This document shows positions 47,254 to 62,493 of a stretch of DNA of 64,000 nt, in pieces. A program made the position numbers and the translations under genes. The notes beneath the pieces are model-generated. The model saw only the letters and a program-made list of their open reading frames with translations. It did no database searches and had not been told where the DNA came from. The stretch is from Parahoeflea alexandrii. GTDB lineage: Bacteria > Pseudomonadota > Alphaproteobacteria > Rhizobiales > Rhizobiaceae. The first letter of the stretch is position 1. The number at the start of each line of letters is the position of its first letter. The DNA is taken from positions 258,575 through 322,574 of the forward strand of contig NZ_JAPWHB010000005.1 of the NCBI RefSeq assembly GCF_027214025.1. Direction: 5' to 3'.

Positions 47254-48773
47254 AAGTCCGCGCGCAAATCGGCATGGTGCTCAATCTCGACAAATGCATC
47301 GGATGCCACACCTGCTCGGTGACCTGCAAGAATGTCTGGACCAGCCGTGAAGGTGTCGAATACGCCTGGTTCAACAATGTCGAGACCAAGCCCGGCATCG
47401 GCTATCCCAAGGACTGGGAAAACCAGAAACGCTGGAACGGCGGCTGGACCCGATCGAAATCCGGCCACTTGCAGCCCAAGCAGGGCGGCAAGTGGCGGAT
47501 CCTGGCGAATATCTTCGCCAATCCGGACCTGCCCGAAATCGACGACTTCTACGAGCCGTTCGATTTCGATTACGACCATCTCAAATCGGCCCCGGAAATG
47601 CAGGCGTTCCCGACGGCGCGGCCGCGTTCGAAGATTTCCGGCGAGCGGATGGAAAAGATCGAATGGGGTCCGAACTGGGAAGAAATCCTTGGCGGTGAAT
47701 TCGCCAAGCGCAGCCAGGACTACAATTTCGAGGGCATCGAGAAGGAAATCTACGGCGAGTACGAAAACACCTTCATGATGTATTTGCCGAGATTGTGCGA
47801 GCATTGCCTCAACCCGGCCTGCGTCGCCTCCTGTCCCTCGGGCGCGATCTACAAGCGCGAGGACGATGGGGTCGTGCTGATCGACCAGGAGAAATGCCGC
47901 GGCTGGCGCATGTGCGTCTCCGGCTGCCCCTACAAGAAGATCTACTACAACTGGGAAAGCGGCAAGTCGGAGAAATGCACCCTGTGCTATCCGCGCCTCG
48001 AATCGGGTCAGCCGACGGTCTGTTCTGAAACCTGCGTCGGCCGCATCCGCTATCTCGGCGTCATGCTCTATGACGCCGACAAGATATCGCAGGCGGCGGC
48101 GACCGAGCACGAGAAGGATCTCTACGACGCCCAACTCGGCGTCTTCCTCGATCCCAATGATCCCGACGTGATCAAGGCGGCGCGCGCCGAAGGCATTCCG
48201 GAAGACTGGATCAAGGGCGCGCAGAACTCGCCGGTGTGGAAGATGGCGATGGAGTGGAAGATCGCCTTCCCGCTGCATCCCGAATACCGCACCCTGCCGA
48301 TGGTCTGGTACGTGCCGCCGCTCTCGCCAATCCAGAATGCGGCGGAAGCCGGCGCCATCGGCACCGTCGACAACATGCCGGATGTGAAGTCGCTGCGCAT
48401 CCCGGTACGCTATCTCGCCAACATGCTGACCGCCGGTGACGAACAGCCGGTGATCGCGGCGCTGGAACGGATGATGGCGATGCGCGCCTACATGCGCTCG
48501 AAGACGGTGGATGGCGTAGTCAATCTCGGCGTGGCCAATCGCGTCGGGCTGACGCCGCACCAGATTGACGAGATGTACCAGCTGATGGCCATCGCCAATT
48601 ACGAGGACCGGTTTGTCATCCCGACAACCCACCGGGAGCTGGTCGAAGACGCCTATGACCTCAAGTCGGGCTGCGGCTTCACCGACGGCAATGGCTGCTC
48701 GTCAGGCATTTCCAAAGGCAAACTGTTCGGCGGCGGCAAGAGCTTCCGCTCACCCACGGAGTTCCTGTCATGA
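47250..48773 (+). CDS. narH: Respiratory nitrate reductase beta subunit
   Basis: 507-residue iron-sulfur subunit. Four cluster motifs are visible: CIGCHTCSVTC (N-terminus), CEHCLNPACVASC, CRGWRMCVSGC (the Trp in place of a Cys marks the [3Fe-4S] site) and CTLCYPRLESGQPTVCSETC. It passes electrons from NarI to NarG. It overlaps narG and narJ by 4 nt each. Confidence 0.97.
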   Translation: MKVRAQIGMVLNLDKCIGCHTCSVTCKNVWTSREGVEYAWFNNVETKPGIGYPKDWENQKRWNGGWTRSKSGHLQPKQGGKWRILANIFANPDLPEIDDFYEPFDFDYDHLKSAPEMQAFPTARPRSKISGERMEKIEWGPNWEEILGGEFAKRSQDYNFEGIEKEIYGEYENTFMMYLPRLCEHCLNPACVASCPSGAIYKREDDGVVLIDQEKCRGWRMCVSGCPYKKIYYNWESGKSEKCTLCYPRLESGQPTVCSETCVGRIRYLGVMLYDADKISQAAATEHEKDLYDAQLGVFLDPNDPDVIKAARAEGIPEDWIKGAQNSPVWKMAMEWKIAFPLHPEYRTLPMVWYVPPLSPIQNAAEAGAIGTVDNMPDVKSLRIPVRYLANMLTAGDEQPVIAALERMMAMRAYMRSKTVDGVVNLGVANRVGLTPHQIDEMYQLMAIANYEDRFVIPTTHRELVEDAYDLKSGCGFTDGNGCSSGISKGKLFGGGKSFRSPTEFLS

Positions 48774-49462
48774 CCCGTACTTTCAAGGCCCTGTCGGCAG
48801 TACTGACATACCCCTCCACCGAGCTGCAGCAGGCCATTCCGGAGATCCGGGAGGTGCTTGCGGCCGAAGCCATCGTCTCGGCGGCCGCGCTTGATGCCAT
48901 CGAGCCGTTGCTGGCCGAGTTCGAGACCGGAGACATCTACGATCTGCAGGAGCGGTACGTGCTCCTGTTCGACCGGTCGCGGACGCTGTCGCTCAACCTG
49001 TTCGAACACATCCACGGCGAGGGCCGGGACCGGGGCGGGGCGATGGTCGACCTGCTCGAGACCTACCGCGCCCGTGGCTTCGATCTGGTCGCGACCGAAC
49101 TGCCCGATCACCTGCCGGTGCTGCTCGAGTTCATCTCGACGCTGCCGCAGGCCGAAGCGCGCGAGATGCTGGCCGACGCCGGCCACATCATCGCCGCCCT
49201 GGCTGAGCGGCTGACCCGGCGCGAAACGCCCTACGCGGCTGTGCTGGTCGCGTTGTCGGAGATCGCGCAGGCCTCGACCGGGACCGAAGAAGCCCAGGCG
49301 CTGATCGCCGAGAAGGATGACGATCCCGAGGATCTCGAGGCGCTCGACGCGGTCTACGAGGAGGCGATGGTCACCTTCGGCCCTGATCCGAACGCCGGCT
49401 GCCCCATCAGCCGCGATATTCTGGCCCGCATGGACGAGCCGCTCCGGCCGGCCTCCGCCTGA
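48770..49462 (+). CDS. narJ: Nitrate reductase assembly chaperone NarJ
   Basis: 230-residue all-helical TorD/NarJ-family chaperone that assists Mo-cofactor insertion into NarG. LQERYVLLFDRSRTLSLNLFEHIHGEGRDRG (split, about residues 60-90) is the conserved NarJ signature. Cytoplasmic, not part of the final enzyme. ATGA overlap with narH; 18 nt to narI. Confidence 0.94.
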   Translation: MTRTFKALSAVLTYPSTELQQAIPEIREVLAAEAIVSAAALDAIEPLLAEFETGDIYDLQERYVLLFDRSRTLSLNLFEHIHGEGRDRGGAMVDLLETYRARGFDLVATELPDHLPVLLEFISTLPQAEAREMLADAGHIIAALAERLTRRETPYAAVLVALSEIAQASTGTEEAQALIAEKDDDPEDLEALDAVYEEAMVTFGPDPNAGCPISRDILARMDEPLRPASA

Positions 49463-49480
49463 CACGAAAGGACGAACATC

Positions 49481-50182
49481 ATGAGCTATTTTCTTTTCGG
49501 AGTTCTTCCGTACCTGGCGCTGACCGTGCTGGTGTTCGGATCCATCGCGCGCTACGAGCGCGACCCCTTCACCTGGAAATCATCCTCCAGCCAGCTGTTG
49601 CGCCGCAAGCAGCTGGTCTGGGGCTCGATCCTGTTCCATGTCGGCGTGCTGATCGTGTTCTTCGGCCATCTGGTCGGCATGCTGACGCCGGTCGAGATCT
49701 TTCACATGCTGGGCATGAGCTACGGCTTCAAGCAGGTGCTGGCGATTGTCGTCGGCGGCGTGGCCGGAGCAATGGCCATTGTCGGCGGCGCCATGCTGCT
49801 GCACCGCCGGCTGTTCGATCCGCGGGTCAGGGCCAACTCGTCGTTTGCCGACACCGCCATCCTGGTTCTGCTCTGCGCGCAGCTTGTCCTGGGTCTCGGC
49901 ACCATCCTGGTCTCCATCCAGCATCTGGATGGCGGCGAGATGGTCAAGTTCATGATGTGGGCGCAAGGCATCTTCACCCTGCAGGCGGGAGCCTGGGAAC
50001 TCGTCGCCGACGTGCACTGGATCTTCAAGCTGCATATCCTGCTGGGGCTGACGATCTTCATCCTGTTCCCGTTCACCCGGCTGGTGCACATGCTCTCGGT
50101 TCCGGTGCGCTACGTGTTGCGCCCGGGTTACCAGATCGTCCGCACCCGCAAGCACAAGGTAAATCTGGGGCCAAGACCATGA
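49481..50182 (+). CDS. narI: Respiratory nitrate reductase gamma subunit
   Basis: 233-residue cytochrome b membrane anchor with five helices. SILFHVGVLIVFFGHLVG (about residues 48-65) and the FKLHILLGLTIFILFPFTRLVHMLSVP segment near residue 190 carry the histidines expected to bind the two b haems. It oxidises quinol at the membrane. AAAGGA precedes the ATG. Overlaps the following isomerase gene by 4 nt. Confidence 0.96.
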   Translation: MSYFLFGVLPYLALTVLVFGSIARYERDPFTWKSSSSQLLRRKQLVWGSILFHVGVLIVFFGHLVGMLTPVEIFHMLGMSYGFKQVLAIVVGGVAGAMAIVGGAMLLHRRLFDPRVRANSSFADTAILVLLCAQLVLGLGTILVSIQHLDGGEMVKFMMWAQGIFTLQAGAWELVADVHWIFKLHILLGLTIFILFPFTRLVHMLSVPVRYVLRPGYQIVRTRKHKVNLGPRP

Positions 50183-50973
50183 AGCAGACATTCACCGACA
50201 TTTCCGTCAACGGCGAGGCCATCTCGCCGGAACTGATCGCCACGGAAGCGCAGAACCATCCGGCGCCCAAGGGCAAGCCGGGCATGGCCTGGATGGCGGC
50301 GGCGCGGGCGCTCGCGGTCCGCACGCTGATCCTGCAGGAGGCGCGGCGCCGCGGGCTTGCGGCCTCGCCGTTGGAACTGGCGCCAGGGCTATGGGAAACC
50401 GAGGAAGAGGCGATCATCCGCCAGGTTCTCGATGACGCGGTCGAGGTGGAAACCCCGACGCCTGAGGCCGTTCGCGCGGCCTACGAGGCCAATCCGGAAC
50501 GCCACCGCGCGCCCTCGCTTTATGAAGCAGCACATATCCTGTTCGCCGCGCGGCCAGACGATGTGGTGGCGCGCAAAGTGGCGAAGGATCAGGCCAGTGC
50601 AGTTCTGGCCAAGATCAAGGCCGAGCCGAAAGCCTTCGATGCATTGGCGCGGGACCATTCCGCCTGTTCGTCGCGCGCCAATGGCGGCCGGCTGGGGCAG
50701 ATCTCGGCCGGCGACACCGTGGCCGAATTCGAAGCCGCGCTGGCGGCGCTCAACGAGGGCGAGATCGTCGACGCACCGGTGGAAAGCCGTTACGGCTTTC
50801 ACATCATTCGGCTCGACGCCCGCGCGGAAGGCGAGATCCTGCCGTTCGAGGCGGTGGAGACCGCCTTGCGCTCGGCCCTTGAGAAAGCCGCCTGGGTTCG
50901 CGCCAGCCGTGCCTTTGTCGATGCCTTGGCCGAACAGGCGCAGGTCACCGGCATCACGCTCAGGGCGGCGTGA
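50179..50973 (+). CDS. Parvulin-type peptidyl-prolyl isomerase of the nar operon
   Basis: 264-residue PpiC/NifM-like protein. An N-terminal helical region (about 1-115) precedes the parvulin domain (about 118-220: EAAHILFAARPDD, LARDHSACSSRANGGRLGQI, YGFHIIRLDARAEG). No signal peptide is seen, so it is probably cytoplasmic. Parvulins of this kind follow narGHJI in many proteobacteria and probably aid folding of the nitrate reductase, as NifM does for NifH; this is inferred. ATGA overlap with narI supports co-expression. Confidence 0.9.
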   Translation: MKQTFTDISVNGEAISPELIATEAQNHPAPKGKPGMAWMAAARALAVRTLILQEARRRGLAASPLELAPGLWETEEEAIIRQVLDDAVEVETPTPEAVRAAYEANPERHRAPSLYEAAHILFAARPDDVVARKVAKDQASAVLAKIKAEPKAFDALARDHSACSSRANGGRLGQISAGDTVAEFEAALAALNEGEIVDAPVESRYGFHIIRLDARAEGEILPFEAVETALRSALEKAAWVRASRAFVDALAEQAQVTGITLRAA

Positions 50974-50988
50974 GCCGTTTGGCCTGTC

Positions 50989-51017
50989 CCTGCCGCGGCA
51001 TGATCAGTCGCGGCAGG
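50989..51017 (+). terminator. Hairpin after the nar operon
   Basis: CCTGCCGCG (50989-50997) pairs perfectly with CGCGGCAGG (51009-51017), followed by AACCTTTATTT. The T-run is interrupted, so it may be a leaky terminator between the isomerase gene and the DUF2478 gene. Confidence 0.55.
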
Positions 51018-51087
51018 AACCTTTATTTCCACCGGTTGCGGTCGTACTCTCGCGTTCGATCCTGCCGGAAAACGAGGAGCAGTCATC

Positions 51088-51600
51088 ATGGCGTTGGCCT
51101 TTGTGAAAACCACCGAGCGCGGATTGACCGACCGGTTGTTGTGGGAGTTTGCCGACCGCCTGCAAGAGCGCGGGTTTAACCTCGCCGGCGTTGTGCAGAC
51201 CAACAGCGACCGGCCCGGTTCACATCACTGCGACATGGATGTACGGGTTTTGCCGACCGGCCCGGTGATCCGGATCAATCAGGTTCTGGGCGACGAATCG
51301 CGCGGCTGCCGCCTCAATCCGGTTGCGCTCGAGGAAGCCGTTGCGCTGGTCGAGGCCGGGCTCGAGCGTTCGCCAGACCTCCTGATCATCAACAAGTTCG
51401 GCAAGCACGAAGCCGAGGGCAGGGGCTTCCGGCCGCTGATCGCCGAGGCGCTCGCCCGCGACATCCCCGTGCTGCTGGGTGTCAACGCGCTCAACAGCCA
51501 GGCTTTCGAGGAGTTCAGCGGCGGCTATGCCGAGGAGATCGCGGCGAATGCCGAAAGCTTGGCCGCATGGTACGGGTGTTTGCAGCAATTGCCTGCCTGA
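51088..51600 (+). CDS. DUF2478 protein
   Basis: 170-residue protein of the DUF2478 family. Visible features are a GSHHCDMDVRVLPTGPVIRINQ segment with His/Cys residues, GDESRGCRLNP, and DLLIINKFGKHEAEGRGFRPLI, which looks like the Walker B/guanine-type part of an NTPase although the start lacks a clear P-loop. Such genes often accompany molybdenum-transport or Mo-enzyme loci, so a role in molybdate or cofactor supply for nitrate reductase is possible but unproven. GAGGAG precedes the ATG. Confidence 0.8.
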   Translation: MALAFVKTTERGLTDRLLWEFADRLQERGFNLAGVVQTNSDRPGSHHCDMDVRVLPTGPVIRINQVLGDESRGCRLNPVALEEAVALVEAGLERSPDLLIINKFGKHEAEGRGFRPLIAEALARDIPVLLGVNALNSQAFEEFSGGYAEEIAANAESLAAWYGCLQQLPA

Positions 51601-51748: not shown

Positions 51749-52573
51749 TTAGCCGCCGAAACCGAAGCCGGGAGGCATGTCGGTCAGCGTGACACCATAG
51801 GTCTCGAGGCTCTTCAGGATCCAGGTCTGGTTGTTGCCGATGCGGCGATTGTACTCCGCCCAGCCTGAAACGAAGCTCTTGAAGGTTTCGTCCGTGCCAT
51901 AGTTGACCGCGATGACCGATGGTGTCGAAAGAACCGGGGTCGGTACCTTGACGGCGCCAATCGTCGGGGCCTTCTTCGAGATCACCAGGCCGTTGAGCAT
52001 GGTGTTGACGAGGCCGTCCGCCTTGCCCGTGGTGACCGCGACGATGGCTTCGTCGCGGGTCTTGAAGCGAAGCATGTTGGCATTCGGCAGATATTGCTGC
52101 GCCATAAGGTCCTGGGCCGATCCGAGGTCGACGGCGAAGGTGTATTTCGCATCGTTGAGCTCGTTCCAGCTCTTGCCGGTCAGTTCCTCATTGGCCGAAA
52201 CGATGACGAAGCTGTTGTAGTAGGTCGGGTCCGAAAACGAGACCGACATGGCGCGGACCGGGGTCGCGGTCACGGCGAACGCCATGTCGACCTTGCCGCT
52301 CTGCACGTCGAGGATGGCATTTGCCCAGCTCGATTCGACCACTTCCAGCTTGACGTCGAGGGTCTTGGCGATGTCGCTCGCCATGTCGATGACGAAGCCC
52401 TGCCATTCGTTGGTGCGCGGATCCTTGTTGAAGTAAGGAACCTCGTTGAGAATGGCCGGTATGCGAAGCACGCCCCGGGCGCGGATTTCGTCGATGGTGC
52501 CGGCGGAGGCAGTCGTTCCCAGAACGGAAAGCGCCATGGCCGCCAGGCCGCAGATCTTTGCGAATAGTTTCAT
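51749..52573 (-). CDS. Amino-acid-type ABC transporter substrate-binding protein
   Basis: 274-residue family 3 periplasmic binding protein. Signal peptide about residues 1-24 (GTTASA), then the classic DEIRARGVLRIPAILNEVPYF start, FVIDMASDIAKTLDV, and the DMAFAVTATPVRAMSVSFSDPTYY stretch. The ATG at 52573 has GGAG 9 nt upstream; a further in-frame ATG 15 nt earlier is weaker. It is on the opposite strand from the permease and ATPase genes (59851-61411), which lack a binding protein of their own, so it is the likely partner. Ligand unknown; a polar or dicarboxylic amino acid is likely. Confidence 0.88.
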   Translation of the reverse strand: MKLFAKICGLAAMALSVLGTTASAGTIDEIRARGVLRIPAILNEVPYFNKDPRTNEWQGFVIDMASDIAKTLDVKLEVVESSWANAILDVQSGKVDMAFAVTATPVRAMSVSFSDPTYYNSFVIVSANEELTGKSWNELNDAKYTFAVDLGSAQDLMAQQYLPNANMLRFKTRDEAIVAVTTGKADGLVNTMLNGLVISKKAPTIGAVKVPTPVLSTPSVIAVNYGTDETFKSFVSGWAEYNRRIGNNQTWILKSLETYGVTLTDMPPGFGFGG

Positions 52574-52734
52574 TGTCAGGTTCTCCATTGTTCCCCGAAA
52601 ACTCCTCAGTGTCCGTTCCCGCGGCGGGAAATTCCCTGTGCGGCGTCAACGGCCACGGGTAGCCTAGCCGGTAAAAGAAGGGGGACAATGCTAGAGAACC
52701 CGAGCCACTTATCCGCTTTTTTGTATGTGGCCGG

Positions 52735-53664
52735 TCACAATGGAGGGTGGGACAGCTCGCCGCCGCGGGGTGGTTCGAGAACGGGGCCGACGAGTTCGCG
52801 CCTGCAATCCTCGAACAATTGCTGCACCGTCGGGTGCTTCTGCAGGAAGCCGGCACTGCCGAAATACACGCGGACTTCCGGCAGGTTCGTCAAACGCGTG
52901 CTGCTGATGGTCGGATCTTCCGGACCAACACACCAGGATGGAATGATCGAGAACCCCAGCCCTTCCTCAACACAGCGCTTGACGCTGGAACTGCCCGAGG
53001 CCGAGATCACCGGCTGGACGACCGAACCGTCGCGGCCGAGAAAATCGACGGCCAGGTTTCTCAGCGTCTGTCCGGGCTCGTAGGTGATGAAGGGACGCCC
53101 CTTTGCCCAGGACGGGATGTCGAGCAGCGCAGGCGCCTTGCCCCAGGCGCGGGGGTAGACCAGGCTCAGCCGGTAGCTGCCCAGAAGCCGCTGGGGCACG
53201 ACCGGGTCGCCGAAATAGCGCTCTGAAATGCACACGTCGAGACTGCCGTTCTTGACCAGTTCGGCAAGCACGGTGTCGCGCTCGTAAACCGCGAACTCCA
53301 TCTCCGGAAAGCACTCGCGAAATCGCGACAGCACTTTCGGAAACAGGTAGAAGAAGATCGCCTGCGGCATGCCCACCCGCAGCGACGAACGTTGGCTCTC
53401 GATCAGCTTCGACAGTCGCTCCAGCATGATGTCGAGTTCGGGATGCAGCAGATTGTAGAGCGCCCGCCCGCGCGGCGTCAGCGAAATGCGCTTGGCGCCC
53501 TGCTCGCTGTCGATCAGCTTGCCCTTGAGGATCTGCTCAAGCCGGCGCACATGGTTTGCCGCCGATTGGTAGCTCAGGTTCAATTCTCGGGCCGCACCGG
53601 AAAACGAACCGTGCCGGGCCACCTGGTAGAAGGTCTGGATGAGTGTGAGGCTTATCTCTGCCAT
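52735..53664 (-). CDS. LysR-family transcriptional regulator
   Basis: 309-residue LysR-type regulator. The N-terminal HTH spans residues ~5-62 (IQTFYQVARHGSFSGAARELNLSYQSAANHVRRLEQ); the effector domain follows (about 90-295). It lies upstream of the binding-protein gene on the same strand and is divergent from the flavoenzyme operon (151-bp gap). It probably controls both in response to the transported compound. I found no clear T-N11-A operator. Confidence 0.9.
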   Translation of the reverse strand: MAEISLTLIQTFYQVARHGSFSGAARELNLSYQSAANHVRRLEQILKGKLIDSEQGAKRISLTPRGRALYNLLHPELDIMLERLSKLIESQRSSLRVGMPQAIFFYLFPKVLSRFRECFPEMEFAVYERDTVLAELVKNGSLDVCISERYFGDPVVPQRLLGSYRLSLVYPRAWGKAPALLDIPSWAKGRPFITYEPGQTLRNLAVDFLGRDGSVVQPVISASGSSSVKRCVEEGLGFSIIPSWCVGPEDPTISSTRLTNLPEVRVYFGSAGFLQKHPTVQQLFEDCRRELVGPVLEPPRGGELSHPPL

Positions 53665-53815
53665 GGCTGAATTCCCCTTTCTTCGGGCTTAAGGGGTCTG
53701 GACCTTCTCACCGATACAAATTTCGTGAGCGAACAAGGCCGTCATCTTGTATCGACGGCCCGAGCCGGCAGCCGTCAATATTGGCCTACGAAAGCAACAA
53801 TGTCGGTCAAACGCA

Positions 53816-54991
53816 ATGCAAACCCGCACCCCGTCCACTGTCATCGTCGTCGGCTCCGGCATCGTCGGTGCCGCGACGGCATACTTTCTGGCGAAACGTG
53901 GTGTTGCGGTGCAGCTTTTGGATGCCACGGCACCTGCGGCTGAGGCGACGGGTGCAGCCGATGGCGCGGTGTCCGTCGCCAGCAAGCGTCCCGGCCCGAT
54001 GATGCAGGCGGCCCTCGCAGGCGTCGAGCTCTATCGGAACCTGGCAAAAGCCGGGCTGTTCGCCGATGTCTTCAAATCCCGCTCGACCTTCATTGTCGCC
54101 TCCTCGGATGAGGAATGCTCGGTTCTGACGTCCCATGCCGATGCGCTTGCCGGTGCAGGTGTCCGCGTCGAGCGGCTTGGCGCGGCAATGCTGCGCGAGC
54201 GCTTCCCGGCGCTGTCGTCCAACGCGATGATGGCGGTCGAGGTTCACGACGAGGGACACGCTATAGGCTACCAGATTGTCCATCGCCTGTTGACCGCTTC
54301 CGGGACGATTGTTGCAAGGCGTACGCCTGTCGAGGGTCTGGTAAGGGCTTCCGGCGGGTCCCGTGTCGTCGCGGTCGCAACGCCGCAAGGCAATCTCCAG
54401 GCCGATGCGGTCGTGATCGCCGCCGGCAACGGATCGGGAAAGCTGCTTGGGCTCGAGCAGATCCTGACGCCGCGAAAGGGCCAGTTGCTGATAACTGAAC
54501 GGGTGCCTCCATTGAATGCCGCGATGGCCGGGTCGATCATGTCGGGCCGCTATCTGCTGAGCAAAGGCAGCCAGCCGGCGGGCAACGGCAAGCCGGCGCG
54601 GGGACTGGGTCTCGTGATCGATCCGCTGTCGACCGGCCAGTTCCTGATCGGCGGAACACGTGAAGACCACGGCGACCGGCAGACCAATGACATCGACGCA
54701 GTCTCGCGCATCCTCGCCGATGCCGTGGCGCTGGTGCCGGAACTCGCGGCCGTGCGCCTGTTGCGCAGCTTTGCCGGCGTCCGCACTGCCGTCACCGACG
54801 GCTTGCCGCTGGTTGGACGCATACCCGGACTGGAGAACGCCTATGTCGCCACCGGATTCGAGGGCGATGGAATCTGCCTTGGCCCGATCACCGGCAAGGT
54901 GATGTCGGAGCTTGTCTGCGGCGAAAGCCCGTGCATCGACATCGCGCCTTTTAACCCGGCGCGGTTCGACGGACTGGGGGTCGCGGCATGA
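53816..54991 (+). CDS. FAD-dependent amino-acid/opine oxidoreductase, catalytic (DAO-like) subunit
   Basis: 391-residue FAD oxidoreductase of the D-amino-acid-oxidase/glycine-oxidase fold. The dinucleotide motif GSGIVGAATAYFLAKRG is near residue 12; the C-terminal YVATGFEGDGICLGPITGKVMSELVCG is the flavin-domain end typical of this group. With the next two genes it matches the three-subunit plan of opine, nopaline and D-hydroxyproline dehydrogenases, where this is the substrate-oxidising beta subunit. The ATG at 53816 was chosen because it starts 8 residues before the FAD motif; an in-frame ATG at 53747 is possible. Neither has a strong Shine-Dalgarno. Confidence 0.85.
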   Translation: MQTRTPSTVIVVGSGIVGAATAYFLAKRGVAVQLLDATAPAAEATGAADGAVSVASKRPGPMMQAALAGVELYRNLAKAGLFADVFKSRSTFIVASSDEECSVLTSHADALAGAGVRVERLGAAMLRERFPALSSNAMMAVEVHDEGHAIGYQIVHRLLTASGTIVARRTPVEGLVRASGGSRVVAVATPQGNLQADAVVIAAGNGSGKLLGLEQILTPRKGQLLITERVPPLNAAMAGSIMSGRYLLSKGSQPAGNGKPARGLGLVIDPLSTGQFLIGGTREDHGDRQTNDIDAVSRILADAVALVPELAAVRLLRSFAGVRTAVTDGLPLVGRIPGLENAYVATGFEGDGICLGPITGKVMSELVCGESPCIDIAPFNPARFDGLGVAA

Positions 54992-55242
54992 CCGAGGATA
55001 CCTTCCGTTTGATGGGCCGGACCATCTCCTTCAGGGCAGGCGAGAGCATTGCCGCGGCGTTGCAGGCCGTTGGCGTCCTGACCTATGGCCCCGATGCGCT
55101 GGGTAACGAGACACGCTGCTTCTGCGGTATTGGCGCCTGTCAGTGCTGTCTGGTTCGGGTCGACGGGGTCGTTCGCGAAGCCTGCATTACGCTGGCACGA
55201 CCTGGCATGAGTGTCGAGCCGATGGAGCGCCGAAATGCGTGA
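54988..55242 (+). CDS. [2Fe-2S] small subunit of the opine-oxidase-like enzyme
   Basis: 84-residue ferredoxin-like protein. Clustered cysteines C44, C46, C51, C53/C54 and C66 (ETRCFCGIGACQCC) form the [2Fe-2S] site seen in the gamma subunits of opine oxidases and HcnA. It overlaps the preceding flavoprotein gene by ATGA and the next by 8 nt, so the three subunits are made together. Confidence 0.87.
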   Translation: MTEDTFRLMGRTISFRAGESIAAALQAVGVLTYGPDALGNETRCFCGIGACQCCLVRVDGVVREACITLARPGMSVEPMERRNA

Positions 55243-56566
55243 TCCCGACATTCTTGTAATCGGTGGCGGCCCCGCTGGCATGTCAGCCGCACTTGAAGCC
55301 GCAAGATCAGGCCTGGCAGTCGAACTTGTCGAACAGCGCGAAAGCCTTGGTGGCGCGATCTATCGGCAACCGATCGAGGGCGTCCAGGTTATCCCGCAAT
55401 CGGCGGGAGCCCGCGGCCGCTGGGCGGCCCTTTCGCAGGCATTCAGCAAAGCCGCAATCCCGGTCCGTTTCGGATCCGTCTTTTTGGGCGTCGATGGCCA
55501 CGGCTACGTTCTGGTCGAGAACCGGCAGAACGGCCTGGTCGAATGCCTGTCGCCCAGGGCGGTGGTGTTGGCGACCGGCGCCGTCGAGCATGTCCATCCG
55601 CGCCCGGGTTGGCAATTCGCCGGCGTTTCGACGGCCGGTGGATTGCAGGTAATGATGAAGGAAACCGGCACCGCCCCGCGCGGAAGCGTGCTTCTTGCCG
55701 GCAGCGGCCCGCTGTTGATCGCGGTTGCGGCGCAGATGGCGCGCCTGGGAAATCCGCCTCTGGCAATCGTGGAATCCGGCGATCCCTACCGGCGGATCAT
55801 GCCCGGCCTCAGCATGCTCGGTTTTCCGAAGCTGCTGGCCGAGGCGCTTGGCTATCTCAAGGACATTCACCTGCACCGCATTCCATGGCTGCGCGGTTCG
55901 CGGCTGGTACGGATCGAACGGCAAGGGGAACGGTTCTCTGCTGTCGTGCGAGCCGGAGACGGGAGCCAATCGACGTTCGTCTGTGACCGGATTGGCCTGC
56001 ATGACGGCATCAGGCCCAATGACTATGGCCTGCCTCAGGCTTCGTCGGAGGCCGCGGCCGGTCCGGTCATCTTGCGGGCGGGCGATTGTCGCGAGGCGCT
56101 CGGCGCCATTGCCGCCGAAGCCGACGGCCGTCGCGCCGGCCGCCTGGCGATCCAGGGAGTGGCCGCAAGCGCTGCTGATGATATCGGGAAGATCGACCGG
56201 CAACGCCGTGCACAGGCCCTGCTTGCCAGACTTTTTGCGCCCGTTGATGACCGTTCCGCGCTCGACGAGCTTGCTGACGACACGCTGCTGTGCCGCTGCG
56301 AAGGCAAGACGGTTGGCGATCTGCGCAACCTGTGCCAGCGGGTCGACAGCCTGACCGGGCGCGAGGTCAAGCACAATGGCCGGTTTGCCATGGGCGCCTG
56401 CCAGGGCCGGTTTTGCGCCGCCAACACTGCCGCCCTGATGGCCCGGTTCAAACCTGAAGCCCCGGCATCTTCAGCCGCTGACCTGACCGGTCGGCGCTGG
56501 CCGGTTCGACCGGTGTCGATCGGCGCCCTCGTTCGCGCCGCCTCCCGAGACAATGACACACAATGA
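55235..56566 (+). CDS. FAD/NAD-binding subunit with C-terminal BFD-like [2Fe-2S] domain
   Basis: 443-residue pyridine-nucleotide-disulfide-reductase-like alpha subunit of the opine-oxidase/HcnB type. N-terminal FAD motif ILVIGGGPAGMSAALEA, second nucleotide motif SVLLAGSGPLLIAVAAQMARLG near residue 150. The C-terminal BFD-like cluster has C353, C355, C389 and C394. The ATG at 55235 immediately precedes the FAD motif; the frame extends further upstream without need. It probably passes electrons from the catalytic subunit to quinone or another acceptor. Confidence 0.87.
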   Translation: MRDPDILVIGGGPAGMSAALEAARSGLAVELVEQRESLGGAIYRQPIEGVQVIPQSAGARGRWAALSQAFSKAAIPVRFGSVFLGVDGHGYVLVENRQNGLVECLSPRAVVLATGAVEHVHPRPGWQFAGVSTAGGLQVMMKETGTAPRGSVLLAGSGPLLIAVAAQMARLGNPPLAIVESGDPYRRIMPGLSMLGFPKLLAEALGYLKDIHLHRIPWLRGSRLVRIERQGERFSAVVRAGDGSQSTFVCDRIGLHDGIRPNDYGLPQASSEAAAGPVILRAGDCREALGAIAAEADGRRAGRLAIQGVAASAADDIGKIDRQRRAQALLARLFAPVDDRSALDELADDTLLCRCEGKTVGDLRNLCQRVDSLTGREVKHNGRFAMGACQGRFCAANTAALMARFKPEAPASSAADLTGRRWPVRPVSIGALVRAASRDNDTQ

Positions 56567-56578
56567 TGAGGTTTTGAG

Positions 56579-57979
56579 ATGACGCAGACCCAACGAAAAG
56601 CGCTGTCGGACATCTGTTCGATCCCGGTGCGCAATCCTTTCGATGGCAGGATCGTCGGCGAAGTAGGTGAATCCTCGCAAGCCGAAATTGCCGGCGCCAT
56701 TGTGCGGGCCAAGGTCGCGCAATGGGAATTCCGCCGTTCGACGCCGGCGATGCGCCGCCAGCTCCTGAACGCGCTTGCAGCCGAGGTTGCGGCGGACGCC
56801 GAAAACCTGGCGCGCATCATTTCGTCCGAGATGGGCAAGACCATCCGCGAGGCCCGCAACGAAGTCCGCCGTGCCCAGAACACCCTGAAACTCTCCGGCG
56901 ATGCGGCGACCTTCCTCGACGGGGAGGCGCTTCACTGCGCCATTGTCGAAGGCGGCGCCGACCGTCTGGCGACCATTACCTATGAACCGGTCGGCGTCAT
57001 CGGCGCCATCACGCCGTTCAACTATCCGCTCAACCTGCTTTGCCACAAGCTCGGTCCGGCCATTGCGGCCGGCAATGCGGTAGTCGCCAAGCCGTCGCCC
57101 AAGGCACCGCTGGCCGCCAATCGCCTGTGCGAACTGGCGGTGAAGGCCGGGTGGCCGCGCGACCTGTTCCAGGTCGTCCATGGCGGCGCGGAGGCAGCAC
57201 TTTCGCTGGCGCGCGCGCCGATCGACCTCCTGTCGTTCACCGGGGGGCCGGCGGCGGGCCTGGCACTGAAAAACGCCAGCGGTCTCGTGCGTTGCCTGAT
57301 GGAGCTTGGCGGCAACGATCCGCTGTTCGTGCTGCCCGATGCCGATCTAGGCAAGGCCGTGGCGACTACCATCGGCCACCGCTTCGAGATCGCCGGCCAG
57401 AGCTGTGCGGCAGTCAAGAAGCTCTACCTGCACAAGAATATCGAGAAGGTCTTCACCGAGATGCTGCTCGCCGCAGTCGATGAGGTCGAGTTCGGCGATC
57501 CCTCGCTCGACGATACCGACATGGGCACGGTGATCGATCTGCCCGCCGCGCGTCTCGTGGCTGAGCGGGTGAACGCCAGCATTTCCGGCAATGGTGGAAG
57601 GCTGCTGACAGGTGGCACCCATGACGGCACGGTGTTCTCGCCGACCGTGATTGCCGATGTCGCGCCCGACGCGCCGGTCATCGCCGACGAAACCTTCGGG
57701 CCGGTCATCGCCATCCGCAGCTTCACCGATGCGCACGAGGCGATCGCCGAGGTCAATGCCGGCGCCTATGGCCTGCAGGCGGGCGTGTTCACCAACGACC
57801 ACGCATTGATCAAGACGTTCTCGCGCGACCTGATTGTCGGTGGCGTGATGATCAACGAGGGGCCGGATTTCCGGGCCGAACATGTTCCGTTCGGCGGCGT
57901 CAAGCGCTCAGGCCTCGGCCGCGAAGGGGTCCGCATCGCACTGCGCGAAATGTCGGAGACCAAGGTCGTCATCGATTGA
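56579..57979 (+). CDS. Aldehyde dehydrogenase
   Basis: 466-residue NAD(P)-dependent aldehyde dehydrogenase. The catalytic cysteine is C276 (IAGQSCAAVKK) and the general base E242 (MELGGND), 34 residues apart as in the family. The ELGGNDP and AGQSC forms resemble phosphonoacetaldehyde, lactaldehyde and related semialdehyde dehydrogenases. In this operon it probably oxidises a semialdehyde released from the amino-acid substrate, for example aspartate semialdehyde or 2-oxoglutarate semialdehyde. GAGG lies 8 nt before the ATG, 12 nt after the previous stop. Confidence 0.9.
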   Translation: MTQTQRKALSDICSIPVRNPFDGRIVGEVGESSQAEIAGAIVRAKVAQWEFRRSTPAMRRQLLNALAAEVAADAENLARIISSEMGKTIREARNEVRRAQNTLKLSGDAATFLDGEALHCAIVEGGADRLATITYEPVGVIGAITPFNYPLNLLCHKLGPAIAAGNAVVAKPSPKAPLAANRLCELAVKAGWPRDLFQVVHGGAEAALSLARAPIDLLSFTGGPAAGLALKNASGLVRCLMELGGNDPLFVLPDADLGKAVATTIGHRFEIAGQSCAAVKKLYLHKNIEKVFTEMLLAAVDEVEFGDPSLDDTDMGTVIDLPAARLVAERVNASISGNGGRLLTGGTHDGTVFSPTVIADVAPDAPVIADETFGPVIAIRSFTDAHEAIAEVNAGAYGLQAGVFTNDHALIKTFSRDLIVGGVMINEGPDFRAEHVPFGGVKRSGLGREGVRIALREMSETKVVID

Positions 57980-57990
57980 GGAGAAGCAGC

Positions 57991-58734
57991 ATGCGTATTG
58001 GAATCGTTGGTGCGTCCGGCCGCGTCGGAACACAACTGGTCGAGATCATTCTCTCAAGCCCCGGCCTGGAACTTGCCGCGGCCCTTGTCTCGCCAGGCTC
58101 GAAACTGGTCGGCACGGCGGTTGCTGGCGGTAGCGTCGAGTACCGTCCGGCGGATGCCGCCATGCCCAGCCATTGCGACGTCATGATCGATTTCACCACG
58201 CCGGCCGCGAGCCTCGCGCTGCAGAGGGAGATCGGTGAGAAGCGGATTCCGATGGTGATTGGAACGACCGGTTTCACCCGGGAGGAGGACGCTCTCCTGA
58301 CCGAGGCTTGCGCCTATCGGCCGATGCTTGTCAGCGCAAACTTCGCCCACGGCTTCGAGGCCTTCCGCCTGGCCGTCATCGATTTCGCCAAACGCATGCC
58401 CGACGCCGCTGCACGGATCAGCGAAACCTACCATGCGCGCAAGAAGGCGGAACCCTCGGGCACGTCGCGTTTGCTGGCCGGTGCGATCAAGGAGGTCCGC
58501 AGTCGGGCAATCGGGTCTGATGCGCCGCAGCCGCCGATCGACGTCCATCGGCTTGGTGACACCGTCGGTCTGCACGACGTGCATTTCGACATGGGATCCG
58601 CCGAGGCGAGCTTCAATTACCGGGTTCACACGCTGGGCGCCTATGCCGAAGGGGCAATTGCCGCAGCGCTCTGGCTCATCTCCGAGCCGAGGGCTGCGGG
58701 CCGGTACAGCCTTGCCGACAGTCTTGCAGATTGA
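57991..58734 (+). CDS. DapB-like dihydrodipicolinate-reductase family protein
   Basis: 247-residue DapB-family reductase. Rossmann motif IGIVGASGRVG (residues 3-13), DFTTPAAS near 67 and GTTGF at 91-95 are standard. The catalytic segment ETYHARKKAEPSGT aligns with E. coli EAHHRHKVDAPSGT: Y147 replaces the proton-donor H159, while the H160 and K163 equivalents (H148, K151) and PSGT are kept. It probably acts on a related cyclic imine rather than serving as the housekeeping DapB. GAGGAG lies 7 nt before the ATG, 11 nt after the aldehyde dehydrogenase gene. Confidence 0.83.
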   Translation: MRIGIVGASGRVGTQLVEIILSSPGLELAAALVSPGSKLVGTAVAGGSVEYRPADAAMPSHCDVMIDFTTPAASLALQREIGEKRIPMVIGTTGFTREEDALLTEACAYRPMLVSANFAHGFEAFRLAVIDFAKRMPDAAARISETYHARKKAEPSGTSRLLAGAIKEVRSRAIGSDAPQPPIDVHRLGDTVGLHDVHFDMGSAEASFNYRVHTLGAYAEGAIAAALWLISEPRAAGRYSLADSLAD

Positions 58735-58754
58735 TGAGAAAGAGGATGAAGACG

Positions 58755-59672
58755 ATGAACGAACTTACCGAACGCTTCAGGGGTGTTTTCACCGCGCTGG
58801 TCACGCCGTTCAAGGACGGTGCGGTCGACTACGCCGCCTATGACGCGCTGGTCGAGCGGCAGATCGACGCCGGGATTGCAGGTCTCGTTCCGGTCGGCAC
58901 CACCGGCGAGGCCGCGACCCTTTCCGATGAGGAGGCCGACGCGCTGATTGCCCGCACCGTGCGGCTTGCCGCCGGTCGTGCGCTGGTCATGGCGGGTGCC
59001 GGGGCCAACGACACGCTGAAGACGGTCGACAAGGTCAGGCGCGCCGAGAAAGCCGGCGCTGACGCCGTGCTGATCGTCACGCCCTATTACAACAAGCCGA
59101 CGCAAGCCGGCCTGATCGCCCATTACGGCGCGGCGGCCGAAGCGACCTCGCTTCCGATCATGCTCTACTCGGTGCCGGGCCGCTGCGGCGTCGAGATCGC
59201 CCCGGAAACCTGCGCCACCCTGATGGCGGCACACGACAACATCGTCGCCATCAAGGAGGCCGGCGGATCGGCGGCCCGGGTCACCCAGCTGCGCAAGGCC
59301 TGCGGCGACAAGCTGATCATCCATTCCGGCGATGACGGCCTGACGCTGCCCTTCCTCTCGCTCGGCGCCATTGGCGTCACCAGCGTCGTTGCCAATGTGG
59401 CGCCTCGGGAAATGGTGCAACTGGTCGAGGCCTGGCAGAAGGGCGACACGGCTCGCGCGCTTGCCCTGCACGACATGATCGCCGAACTGACTGATGGCAT
59501 GTTCATCGAATCCAATCCGGGACCGGTAAAGGCGGCGCTGGCGCTCAGCAATCTCGCCGGTCCGGAGATGCGCCTGCCGATGGTGCAGGTCTCGGATGCA
59601 AACCGCGAAACGATCGCCGGGATCCTCAACCGCTTCGCCTCAACGGCGGCCGCCTTCCAAGAAATGCGCTAA
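58755..59672 (+). CDS. DapA-family aldolase/lyase (dihydrodipicolinate-synthase-like)
   Basis: 305-residue TIM-barrel Schiff-base aldolase. The full dihydrodipicolinate-synthase catalytic set is present: T49-T50 (GTTGE), Y111-Y112 (YYNKP), Y138 and R143 (LYSVPGRCG) and the Schiff-base K167 (AIKEAGG). Arg in this position binds the carboxylate of aspartate semialdehyde in DapA, so aldol chemistry with pyruvate is plausible in either direction. Hydroxyproline-pathway HypD deaminases belong to the same superfamily and are an alternative. The start at 58755 has AGAGGA 8 nt upstream; ATG at 58746 is possible. Confidence 0.85.
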   Translation: MNELTERFRGVFTALVTPFKDGAVDYAAYDALVERQIDAGIAGLVPVGTTGEAATLSDEEADALIARTVRLAAGRALVMAGAGANDTLKTVDKVRRAEKAGADAVLIVTPYYNKPTQAGLIAHYGAAAEATSLPIMLYSVPGRCGVEIAPETCATLMAAHDNIVAIKEAGGSAARVTQLRKACGDKLIIHSGDDGLTLPFLSLGAIGVTSVVANVAPREMVQLVEAWQKGDTARALALHDMIAELTDGMFIESNPGPVKAALALSNLAGPEMRLPMVQVSDANRETIAGILNRFASTAAAFQEMR

Positions 59673-59724
59673 GCAGGCCCGGTAGCTTTACATTGTTCTC
59701 GGCCATTGGACATAGGACACTTCA

Positions 59725-59754
59725 GTGCCGGAAGCCTCATCGGCTGTCCGGCAC
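59725..59754 (+). other. Stem-loop between the DapA-like gene and the transporter genes
   Basis: GTGCCGG (59725-59731) pairs with CCGGCAC (59748-59754), and AGCC (59733-59736) with GGCT (59742-59745) inside it. No T-run follows. It may limit readthrough or set an mRNA processing point between the enzyme genes and the ABC genes. Confidence 0.5.
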
Positions 59755-59779
59755 GACAGGAAAGATCGGGGGAAGCAGA

Positions 59780-59854
59780 ATGATTTCCAGAACCAGGAGC
59801 GGCCGGCCAGGACGGACCGGTAGCGGCGCTGCTTCAGGGAGGCGCGCGCAATGA
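59780..59854 (+). CDS. Possible 24-residue leader ORF coupled to the permease gene
   Basis: A short frame with a strong GGGGGAAG ribosome site 6 nt before its ATG encodes a basic peptide starting MISRTRSGRPGR. Its TGA overlaps the permease ATG (ATGA). It may couple translation to the permease, or be a remnant of a longer gene that once stood here, since a binding-protein gene would normally precede the permease. No homology recognised. Confidence 0.4.
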   Translation: MISRTRSGRPGRTGSGAASGRRAQ

Positions 59855-60516
59855 CCTACACTTGGGATTTCCACTCTGTCTGGCAATATTACGATCTTTT
59901 CCTCTGGGGGCTCTGGATCAGTGTCGTCTACACATTCGGCTCGATCTTCTTCGGAATAGTGATCGGACTGGCCACCTGTGCAGCCCGGCTTTCAAGCTGG
60001 AAAGTGCTCAACGCGATCGCTCGCGTCTACCAGGAAATCTTCCGCTGCACGCCGCTGCTGGTCCAGCTGCTGTGGTTCTATTATGCCTTCCCGCTGCTGG
60101 TCGGCGGCTCAATCGACAATCGCGTCGCCGCCCTGCTGACCCTTTCGCTTTATGTCGGCGCCTTCTATGCCGAGATATTTCGGGGCGGGATCGTGTCTAT
60201 CGACAGGGGCCAGCACGAGGCGGCTTCTGCGATCGGCATGAGCCCCGCGCAATCGATGCGGCGGATCATCCTGCCGCAGGCACTGAAGCGGGTGCTGCCG
60301 TCTTTCATCAACCAGTCGGTGATCCAGTTCAAGAATACCTCGCTGGTCTCCGTCATCTCGGTTGCCGATCTCGCCTACATGGCGGCGGTGGTGAACGGCC
60401 AGACCTACCGGCCTCTTGAATCCTACACGCTGATGGCGGGGCTCTACATCGCCATGTTGCTGCCGCTGACGCAGGCGGCCGACTGGATCGAGCGGCGTCT
60501 CAGGGTGAGCGACTAG
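59851..60516 (+). CDS. Polar-amino-acid-type ABC transporter permease
   Basis: 221-residue permease of the HisM/GlnP family with about five helices. YQEIFRCTPLLVQLLWFYYAFPLL near residue 53 and the EAA loop EAASAIGMSPAQSMRRIILPQALKR (about 125-150) are diagnostic. Only one permease gene is present, so it probably works as a homodimer. It is 178 nt after the DapA-like gene and 115 nt before the ATPase gene. Confidence 0.92.
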   Translation: MTYTWDFHSVWQYYDLFLWGLWISVVYTFGSIFFGIVIGLATCAARLSSWKVLNAIARVYQEIFRCTPLLVQLLWFYYAFPLLVGGSIDNRVAALLTLSLYVGAFYAEIFRGGIVSIDRGQHEAASAIGMSPAQSMRRIILPQALKRVLPSFINQSVIQFKNTSLVSVISVADLAYMAAVVNGQTYRPLESYTLMAGLYIAMLLPLTQAADWIERRLRVSD

Positions 60517-60631
60517 AGCATCCAGCGTTCGGGCGGAACCGCCCGACACAGACAGGATGCTCCAGATTCAAAATGTCAGAGCGGCCCTTGCGCGACCAGC
60601 TGGACGTGCAGCGCTCTGGAGGAACGGATGG

Positions 60632-61411
60632 ATGAACATGACAACCAATTCGAACGCCGTCGCGCCCGTTATCGAAGCCATAGGACTGCAGAAGAGTTAC
60701 GGACCGCTCGAGGTTCTGAAGGGGCTCGACCTCAGCCTCGAGCGCGGCGAGGTGGTGGCGTTGATCGGCCCGTCCGGCTCGGGCAAATCGACGTTCATCC
60801 GCTGCCTCAACATGATGGAGATCCCGACCGGCGGGATCATCCGTTTCCGCCAGAAGCGGGTTGGCGATCGCTTTCGCGACAAGGGCGAGGACATCGGCAT
60901 CGGCACGCTCCGCCGTCACGTCGGCATGGTGTTCCAGCACTTCAATCTGTTCCCGCACAAGACTGTCCTTGAGAATGTCACCGAAGGTCCGATCGTCGTC
61001 TGCAAACGTCCGAAAGCGGAAGCACGAGACCTGGCAATGGACCTGCTGATCCAGGTCGGCCTCGGAGACAAGCACGCGGCCTATCCCGCCCATTTGTCCG
61101 GCGGGCAGAAGCAGCGTGTCGCCATAGCCCGGGCATTGGCCATGGAACCCGAGGTCCTGTTGCTCGACGAAGTCACCAGCGCGCTCGATCCGGAACTGGT
61201 AGGCGAAGTGCTGGCCGTCATCCGCGGACTGGCCGACAAGGGCATGACCATGGCGATCGTCACCCACGAAATGGCGTTTGCCGCCGACGTCGCCAGCCGC
61301 GTCCTCTTCCTGGATCAGGGCGTGATCGCCGAGTCCGGCTCGGCCGAGGATGTGATCCTCAACCCGCAGAACCCCAGGCTTCAGGGCTTCGTTGCGCGGT
61401 TCAGGGGGTAA
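60632..61411 (+). CDS. Polar-amino-acid-type ABC transporter ATPase
   Basis: 259-residue ATPase of the GlnQ/HisP group. Walker A GPSGSGKS near residue 49, Q-loop VFQHFNLFPHKTVLENV, signature LSGGQKQRVAIARAL, Walker B VLLLDEVTSALDPELVGEV, switch IVTHEMAFA. The ATG at 60632 has GGAGG 9 nt upstream; the longer frame starting at 60557 lacks a ribosome site. It works with the preceding permease and most likely with the binding protein encoded at 51749-52573. Confidence 0.93.
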   Translation: MNMTTNSNAVAPVIEAIGLQKSYGPLEVLKGLDLSLERGEVVALIGPSGSGKSTFIRCLNMMEIPTGGIIRFRQKRVGDRFRDKGEDIGIGTLRRHVGMVFQHFNLFPHKTVLENVTEGPIVVCKRPKAEARDLAMDLLIQVGLGDKHAAYPAHLSGGQKQRVAIARALAMEPEVLLLDEVTSALDPELVGEVLAVIRGLADKGMTMAIVTHEMAFAADVASRVLFLDQGVIAESGSAEDVILNPQNPRLQGFVARFRG

Positions 61412-61416
61412 GCGGC

Positions 61417-62493
61417 ATGGCAAGGCTCAATGTCAGCATTTTCGGCGCCGGCGAGATAGGGACAGCGCTTGCCGCTGCATTGGCCGCCAGCGACGCCTTC
61501 TCGGTGCAGGTTATCGACCGGTCGGAGGGCGCGCTCGACCGCCTTCGCTCGATGAACACCAAGGCATTGCTGCGAACCTTCAGCCATCGCGATGATCTGC
61601 AAAGACTTCTGTCCGGCCAGGACGTCGCGGTCGCCGCCGTTCCTGAATCCGCAGTAGGCGATATTGCCCAGGCCGCGGCGCAGGCAAACGTCCATTATCT
61701 CGACTTCACCTGCCCCGGACCGGACACGCGGGCAATCCTGGATGGTCTGTCACGGCATCGCGCAGTCTTCACCGGTTGCGGCGTTTCGCCGGGCTTGATC
61801 GGCAACGTCGCGTGTCAGCTTCTGGACGCGTTTTCGCCGGTGACGGACCTGACGATCCGGGTCGGCGCCATACCGCGCTACCCCACCAACCGGCTCGGTT
61901 ATGGCCAGATCTGGAACGTCGACGGACTGATCGACGAATACACGCGGCCCAGCGCCGGGATTCGCGACGGCAAGCCGGTTTCGCTTACGCCGCTCGAGGG
62001 ATACGGCCAGCTGAGCATCGATGGCGTGAGCTACGAGGAGTTCATCACCTCGGGCGGCATCGAAGACCTGTCGATCTTTGGCGAGCAACTGCCCAAGAAC
62101 GTCACGTTCAAGACCATTCGCTATCCGGGCCATCTCGACTACATGCGCTTCCTGCTCGACGACCTGGGCCTTCGCCATCGCCGCGACATGCTCCGTTCGC
62201 TGCTCTACAACGGGCTGCCGGTCATCGACGACGATATCCTGCTTCTGGTCGTCACCGCCCGTGGCTATCGCGGTCGTCAGCCGACGGAACGGACGGTCAG
62301 CTACCGGTTCGCCCCTGACCTGAAGTCCGGCCCGTTCAACGCCCTGACGTCCGTGGCGACGCGCTATGCCGCCACGCTTCTTTCCATGCTCCAGCGCGGA
62401 GATATCGGGCCGAGCGGAAAGGTTGCCCATCACCGCATCGACACCACGAAGATCCTTGCAGACCCGTTCCTCAAGCCGCTGATTTGCGATTAG
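61417..62493 (+). CDS. Saccharopine-dehydrogenase-like oxidoreductase
   Basis: 358-residue NAD(P)-dependent protein of the saccharopine/lysine-6-dehydrogenase group. Rossmann motif SIFGAGEIGTALAAALAAS (about residues 7-25), YLDFTCPGPDTRAIL near 92, and the family segment FTGCGVSPGLIGNVACQLLD near 120. A conserved TRPSAGIRDGKPVSLTPLEG segment follows. It lies 5 nt after the ATPase gene with GGGGG upstream of the ATG and is the last gene of the operon. Substrate unknown; members of this family act on amino acids with a second amino group or on N-linked opines. Confidence 0.82.
   Translation: MARLNVSIFGAGEIGTALAAALAASDAFSVQVIDRSEGALDRLRSMNTKALLRTFSHRDDLQRLLSGQDVAVAAVPESAVGDIAQAAAQANVHYLDFTCPGPDTRAILDGLSRHRAVFTGCGVSPGLIGNVACQLLDAFSPVTDLTIRVGAIPRYPTNRLGYGQIWNVDGLIDEYTRPSAGIRDGKPVSLTPLEGYGQLSIDGVSYEEFITSGGIEDLSIFGEQLPKNVTFKTIRYPGHLDYMRFLLDDLGLRHRRDMLRSLLYNGLPVIDDDILLLVVTARGYRGRQPTERTVSYRFAPDLKSGPFNALTSVATRYAATLLSMLQRGDIGPSGKVAHHRIDTTKILADPFLKPLICD

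Follow-up and report, generated by a model that had tools for sequence, protein, structure and literature searches.

A conserved 11-gene cassette of Parahoeflea alexandrii, possibly akin to opine and imino-acid catabolic operons, with a dihydrodipicolinate-synthase-type aldolase that has lost its lysine-feedback residues

Among the closest described systems are three-subunit flavoenzymes that dehydrogenate opines (OdhABC, Nox, Oox) or D-hydroxyproline (PMC4575208), whose genes follow a beta-gamma-alpha order, whose gamma subunit carries a cysteine motif and whose clusters adjoin an ABC importer. As described in the sections of that publication available to us, these clusters are without partners of the lysine-biosynthetic DapA and DapB families, an aldehyde dehydrogenase (ALDH) or a lysine-dehydrogenase-like enzyme. 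Such a trimer, in the same gene order and next to an importer, has been found together with all four of these partners in a stretch of 64,000 nucleotides from Parahoeflea alexandrii (contig NZ_JAPWHB010000005.1, positions 258,575 to 322,574, hereafter the window). The cassette occupies positions 51749–62493 and consists of 11 genes, two of which run leftward (a substrate-binding protein, SBP, and a LysR regulator) and nine rightward, from the DAO-family subunit of the trimer to a lysine/saccharopine-dehydrogenase-like enzyme. It is possibly akin to the operons for opine and imino-acid catabolism, perhaps with a novel use of a lysine-pathway enzyme, and we tentatively propose, at somewhat less than an even chance for the whole including the type of substrate and the route given below, that it serves the breakdown of one compound as a self-contained operon that moves horizontally. 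No description of the cluster or of its chemistry has been found in the open-access literature searched.

The cassette has proved to be a constant unit that recurs in scattered alphaproteobacteria. A first-pass annotation, made from the letters of the window alone, had already delimited it; its gene list and borders have turned out to be exact, the coordinates and strands of every named gene have been borne out, and all 11 genes have been recovered in each of the 20 loci examined, i.e., the window, 18 aligned relatives and the rearranged locus L094. The gene order is identical in 19 of them, and in L094 (genome G436, of the same class and more distant) the SBP gene has been relocated between the genes of the DapA and permease homologues. 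A contig scan with the DapB homologue has yielded at least 19 loci, and the 12 found among the matches listed at 62–77% identity all hold the full set, as do three plasmid loci (Pannonibacter, Martelella and Ensifer canadensis; three of the five at ≥60% identity were examined, H3 and H5 being left out) and three further genome loci. Among the 18 relatives, identity to the window proteins reaches 91% and falls to 42% for the last gene in the lowest locus; the last gene of L094 is 35% identical to the window copy. The 2.9-kb flanks of 19 loci fall into 18 separate groups upstream, where that of L013 spans only about 0.25 kb and hence is little informative, and into 15 downstream. The loci do not represent 20 independent events, as downstream flanks are common to L008, L010, L011 and L016, and to L056 and L059. 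Because the set has remained constant while the flanks mostly differ, the grouping of the 11 genes is not due to chance. The genes have been under purifying selection, with ratios of nonsynonymous to synonymous differences (pN/pS) of 0.10–0.45 against three relatives (for the ATPase in one of the three comparisons). The DapB form of the cassette is rare, having been detected in at least 4 of 397 genomes of the order (≥50% identity), at least 2 of 385 of the class and at least 1 of 398 of the phylum (both E ≤ 1e-35), the genome of the window included in each case; these counts are lower bounds, few candidates having been scored per genome. One carrier, L008 (contig JAIBEK010000065.1), comes from a metagenome-assembled genome labelled Arenimonas and shows a Ciceribacter-like cassette and downstream flank; this contig is probably mis-binned.

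The most telling member of the cassette is the aldolase DapA' (58731–59672, forward strand), which matches the dihydrodipicolinate synthase (DHDPS) model TIGR00674 at 317 bits, far above the curated cut-off of 206; the three copies tested have all passed it, with 316.9, 318.9 and 301.9 bits against 206.15. The biosynthetic DapA of the same genome scores 315 bits, and three other genomic paralogues score 92, 150 and 110. The first-pass annotation had stated that every DHDPS residue is kept, which holds for the active site and fails for the lysine-feedback site. The Thr-Thr, Tyr-Tyr, Tyr, Arg and Lys of the active site, which we take to correspond to Thr44/Thr45, Tyr106/107, Tyr133, Arg138 and Lys161 of E. 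coli, have been found in 20/20 cassettes and in 29/29 canonical enzymes (29 of 30 loci used), the arginine presumably being the residue that holds the carboxylate of the semialdehyde. The feedback site consists of two His and one Glu, presumably His53, His56 and Glu84; each of the three has been lost in all 20 cassettes, whereas the canonical enzymes keep them in 28, 29 and 29 of 29. A lysine-feedback site is not universal among known DHDPSs. Judged by these residues, DapA' has probably kept its ability to act on pyruvate and aspartate semialdehyde (or on the adduct of the two), free of control by lysine, and it is suited to a dedicated role because it keeps the active site yet has lost the feedback residues. 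Apart from this loss, what sets it off from the DHDPS DapA is its catabolic-type operon setting, from which the direction of the reaction has been taken: DapA' would probably split an intermediate resembling hydroxytetrahydrodipicolinate, with pyruvate and aspartate semialdehyde as the products.

Its neighbour DapB' (57991–58734, forward strand) has diverged further. It shares with DapB the two-domain fold (DapB_N/DapB_C by Pfam), the glycine motifs for nucleotide binding and, in 19/19 aligned copies, the substrate Lys and the S-G-T loop. It differs from DapB in its score of 117 bits, below the dapB cut-off of 122 of TIGR00036, and all four copies tested have remained below this value (117.1, 116.8, 108.7 and 116.2 bits), while the canonical DapB of the same genome reaches 258.4 bits. 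In the His-His-x-x-Lys motif, the first His, which we take to be the catalytic residue, is present in 31/31 canonical enzymes and has been replaced by Tyr in the 19 aligned DapB' sequences as well as in L094. Moreover, a conserved Arg of DapB has become Leu in 17 and Val in one of the 19, with Arg retained in a single copy, another conserved His has been lost in 18/19, and a loop that all or nearly all of the 31 canonical DapBs keep has been shortened (L024–L026, partial or different matches, were excluded from this control set). An argument for a switch from NADPH to NADH, built on the putative Arg39 position, has been dropped, as this position is not conserved among the canonical DapBs as listed. 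With NAD(P)+, the DapB reaction would run steeply uphill if reversed, to judge from enoyl reduction in the butyryl-/crotonyl-CoA couple. The earlier suggestion of DapB chemistry in reverse thus finds no counterpart in these residues and scores; DapB' is a changed enzyme, and we doubt that it runs the ordinary DapB reaction backwards. Separate biosynthetic dapA and dapB genes lie elsewhere in the genome, so that the DapA'/DapB' pair is not the sole set of these lysine enzymes in the organism.

Regarding the trimer, the cassette encodes a DAO-family catalytic beta subunit (53813–54991, PF01266), a small [2Fe-2S] gamma subunit (54988–55242, PF13510, Fer2_4) and a FAD/[2Fe-2S] alpha subunit (55211–56566, PF07992, Pyr_redox_2), all on the forward strand. 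The gamma motif C-X4-C-X2-C-X11/12-C has been found in 20/20 loci. The C-X-C and C-X4-C pairs of the alpha subunit are present in 20/20, up to 40 residues apart, and have in 0/20 the spacing C-X-C-X15-20-C-X4-C published for this motif (PMC4575208, as available to us). A difference lies in the beta subunit, in which R-X-W is given as the FMN (flavin mononucleotide) motif of opine and D-hydroxyproline dehydrogenases in the same partial source (PMC4575208): the cassettes have R-X-F in 20/20 and R-X-W in 0/20, and the beta subunit of the other trimer of the genome (L160) reads RSW. By this motif, the cassette trimer is assigned to a subfamily separate from the characterised ones. R-X-F is also found in a sister cluster on Sinorhizobium pSymA and pC101c (L082 and L083), where a LysR regulator (57–58% identical) and a trimer (catalytic subunit about 54% identical) lie at 13739–16709 of L082 and at about 12861–16661 of L083. 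This cluster differs in having another type of ABC importer, a short-chain dehydrogenase/reductase (SDR) and a TauE/SafE protein (annotated in L082), and in the L082 and L083 stretches examined, nothing matching DapA', DapB', the ALDH or the product of the lysine-dehydrogenase-like gene has been found. The Ti-plasmid matches H78 and H83 have been set aside as another cluster type. On a short contig of the genome itself (C5, L156), a number of DAO-type genes occur together with flavin/[2Fe-2S] subunits, ABC ATPase genes of the peptide type and one SDR-like gene, and one region has matches spread across neighbouring frames.

The type of compound taken up is indicated by the SBP (51749–52573, reverse strand; SBP_bac_3, 74–89% identical in the 18 relatives), which retains the carboxylate-site Arg and shows Thr where the Asp for the alpha-amine would stand in 20/20 loci, within a motif T-P-x-R-A in 19/20 and V-P-T-R-A in L094. 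The position has been placed by alignment, and its equation with Asp161 of LAO is our own reading. Loss of the alpha-amine Asp of LAO and HisJ together with a retained carboxylate Arg is the pattern of opine-type binding proteins; at this position NocT, which does not bind arginine, has Ser and OccJ has Asn, and the authors tie the replacement of Asp, together with a change at Ser72, to the lost binding of free arginine (PMC4192606, in the part available to us). The residues of the SBP therefore favour a ligand that would lack a free alpha-amine, and import of free diaminopimelate, as the first-pass annotation had envisaged it, is disfavoured because the Asp that locks the alpha-amine is missing.

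The cassette appears to be governed by a single site. Between the genes of the LysR regulator (52735–53664, reverse strand; LysR profile, 71–91% identical in the 18 relatives) and the DAO subunit, a palindrome GATACAA-N27-TTGTATC at 53713–53753 marks the LysR/operon promoter and is probably the LysR operator, as judged from its conservation. Its arms are exact in 17/19 aligned loci, L017 and L018 having variant arms. When eight whole genomes were searched for the exact pattern, 6/8 had a single site, in each case at the cassette, and G436 and the genome of L017 had none; a reversed-pattern control has given 0 sites in the eight genomes, and a second site with exact arms elsewhere has been found in none of them. 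Since the site has been found only at the cassette in these 6/8, no distant operon shares the operator, and the pathway, as far as conservation indicates, appears to be self-contained under one regulator. Further conserved promoter-region elements, aligned in 19 loci, lie upstream of the SBP gene (52685–52728, reverse strand), namely ACATACAAAAAAGCGGATAAG at 52708–52728 and TCTCTAGCATTGT at 52685–52697. A GCATTGT-like element, AGCTTTACATTGT, at 59684–59696 (forward strand) resembles the one upstream of the SBP, lies between DapA' and the permease in a gap of about 130–280 bases and might represent a second promoter region.

The two remaining enzymes are an ALDH (56579–57979, forward strand, PF00171), proposed to oxidise aspartate semialdehyde, whose catalytic Cys and Glu motifs are present in 20/20 loci and whose paralogues in the same genome are at most 37% identical to it, and the product of the last gene (61417–62493, forward strand), a saccharopine/lysine-6-dehydrogenase-like NAD(P) enzyme (PF16653/PF03435, Sacchrp_dh_NADP/C). 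The best solved relative of the latter is PH1688 (3abi, E 1.1e-17), which is called an L-lysine 6-dehydrogenase in the available part of its source (PMC10413350). Homologues of the last gene (E ≤ 1e-25) occur in 55 of 385 genomes of the class, the present one included, and of 19 located outside cassettes, 7 lie no more than about 1.5 kb from an ALDH gene. All 19 carry T-E-D-V, whereas the E-D of this motif has been lost in 19/20 cassette copies and kept in L094. A carboxyspermidine-type chemistry has been rejected, the His-Glu-Glu triad reported for it (PMC10413350, same portion) being present in 0/20.

Taken together, the proposed route would begin with the LysR regulator, which would sense the compound and open the divergent promoters, and with the SBP, permease and ATPase, which by family and residues are predicted to import it. 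The flavin trimer would oxidise a C-N bond and feed the respiratory chain, following the precedent of its family. In the weakest step, which is a guess, the lysine-6-dehydrogenase-like enzyme and DapB' might shape the resulting amine or cyclic imine into a 4-hydroxytetrahydrodipicolinate-type intermediate; DapA', whose active site has been seen to be intact, would split it in the catabolic direction into pyruvate and L-aspartate semialdehyde, and the ALDH would, as family precedent suggests, oxidise the semialdehyde to aspartate and make the sequence irreversible. The substrate would be a compound without a free alpha-amine, i.e., a secondary amine resembling an opine, or else a cyclic imino acid, with a 2,6-dicarboxylated skeleton (diaminopimelate or piperidine-2,6-dicarboxylate), and this assignment shares the tentative, somewhat below even, standing of the operon and route with which it is joined. 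Several points weigh against this proposal. DHDPS is normally a synthetic enzyme, and cleavage would need the pull of the ALDH, whose best-scoring NCBIfam models, none of them reaching cut-off, are those for the dehydrogenases of sulfoacetaldehyde, lactaldehyde and phosphonoacetaldehyde; because these families serve other small aldehydes, the oxidation of aspartate semialdehyde is without family support. The roles of DapB' and of the lysine-dehydrogenase-like enzyme come from the chemistry left over and not from residues. We know of no abundant natural piperidine-2,6-dicarboxylate or diaminopimelate opine, and an opine-like or cyclic diaminopimelate nutrient has not been found in the open-access literature searched.

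Other arrangements of the same enzymes have to be weighed against this route. The first-pass annotation had read the locus as a LysR-controlled catabolic operon that includes an importer of the amino-acid type, and this reading stands. It had filled the operon with a route, not upheld here, in which free meso-diaminopimelate is imported, oxidised at its D-centre to tetrahydrodipicolinate and broken down by DapB' and then DapA', both working in reverse, so as to give pyruvate and aspartate semialdehyde and, from there, aspartate. Such a route would make good use of the intact active site of DapA' and its freedom from lysine feedback, and its order of enzymes is chemically sensible; we consider it improbable, as it has to contend with an SBP lacking the alpha-amine Asp, with a DapB' deprived of its His, conserved Arg and loop, with the uphill desaturation named above, and with a lysine-dehydrogenase-like gene left with no clear task. 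That the pair consists of mere spare lysine-biosynthesis genes travelling with an unrelated transport and oxidation operon would agree with DapA' passing the dapA model; this reading has been rejected as very improbable, since canonical copies exist elsewhere, every carrier has a changed DapB' and no longer has the feedback site, and DapA' and DapB' are always present.

A hydroxyproline-style pathway, in which a hydroxylated imino acid such as hydroxypipecolate is oxidised by the trimer and then opened, or split, by the member of the DapA family before its aldehyde passes to the ALDH, is quite unlikely in our judgement, even with the same three enzyme families known to meet in hydroxyproline catabolism and with a ring imino acid suiting an SBP without the alpha-amine lock. 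By score and residues DapA' is a DHDPS, and its Arg, in the role assumed above, would be better suited to a dicarboxylate. There would be no explanation for DapB' or for the lysine-dehydrogenase-like gene, and no 2-epimerase is encoded among the 11 cassette genes, the rest of the genome not having been searched for one. A trimer of this type is given as D-hydroxyproline dehydrogenase in the accessible part of PMC4575208; the R-X-W motif is present in 0/20 cassette trimers. An opine of a diamino acid such as lysine or 2,4-diaminobutyrate appears unlikely as well. Here the trimer would release a keto acid and the diamino acid, the last enzyme would turn the latter into a semialdehyde for the ALDH, and DapA' and DapB' would form a forward side branch. 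The opine-like pattern of the SBP, the opine-dehydrogenase type of the trimer and the kinship of the last gene with PH1688 (the last two by sources available in part, PMC4575208 and PMC10413350), as well as the ALDH beside 7 of its 19 homologues, speak for it; against it, DapA' and DapB' would be always present without need, and the TEDV of all 19 homologues is lost, its E-D missing from every cassette copy except that of L094.

The remaining features concern the importer and the gene borders. Protein families have been assigned by Pfam/NCBIfam profile scans of the open reading frames (ORFs) of the window. The cassette has only one permease gene (59851–60516, PF00528; EhuC-like at 180 of 197 bits), followed by an ABC ATPase (60557–61411), named from its own sequence and from homologues in other loci (73–90% identical in 18 relatives), both on the forward strand. 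Starts and stops of several neighbouring genes overlap. The DAO gene probably starts at ATG 53813 and not at the TTG 53747 of the gene caller, because the latter sits within the conserved palindrome; DapB' probably starts at ATG 57991, and the SBP at 52573, its ORF running from 52588. Directly upstream of the cassette, positions 47250–51600 of the window hold the genes for the beta and gamma subunits of nitrate reductase and, after them, a DUF2478 gene; a CobW gene is the downstream neighbour.

In its fullest form, the proposal states that a DHDPS has been recruited without lysine feedback and is run in reverse in a dedicated mobile pathway to pyruvate and aspartate, partnered by a DapB homologue that has evolved into a new enzyme for cyclic imines and by a new R-X-F subfamily of trimers, with an opine-like or cyclic diaminopimelate derivative as an unrecognised bacterial nutrient; taken whole, we regard it as doubtful. 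If it is true, a DHDPS of the lysine branch would be used for breakdown, and the cassette would point to a diaminopimelate- or opine-like pool that feeds soil and plant-associated bacteria. Whatever the chemistry, the cassette has sharp borders, all 20 loci examined carry it and its operator can be recognised, so that its substrate should be findable by standard experiments.

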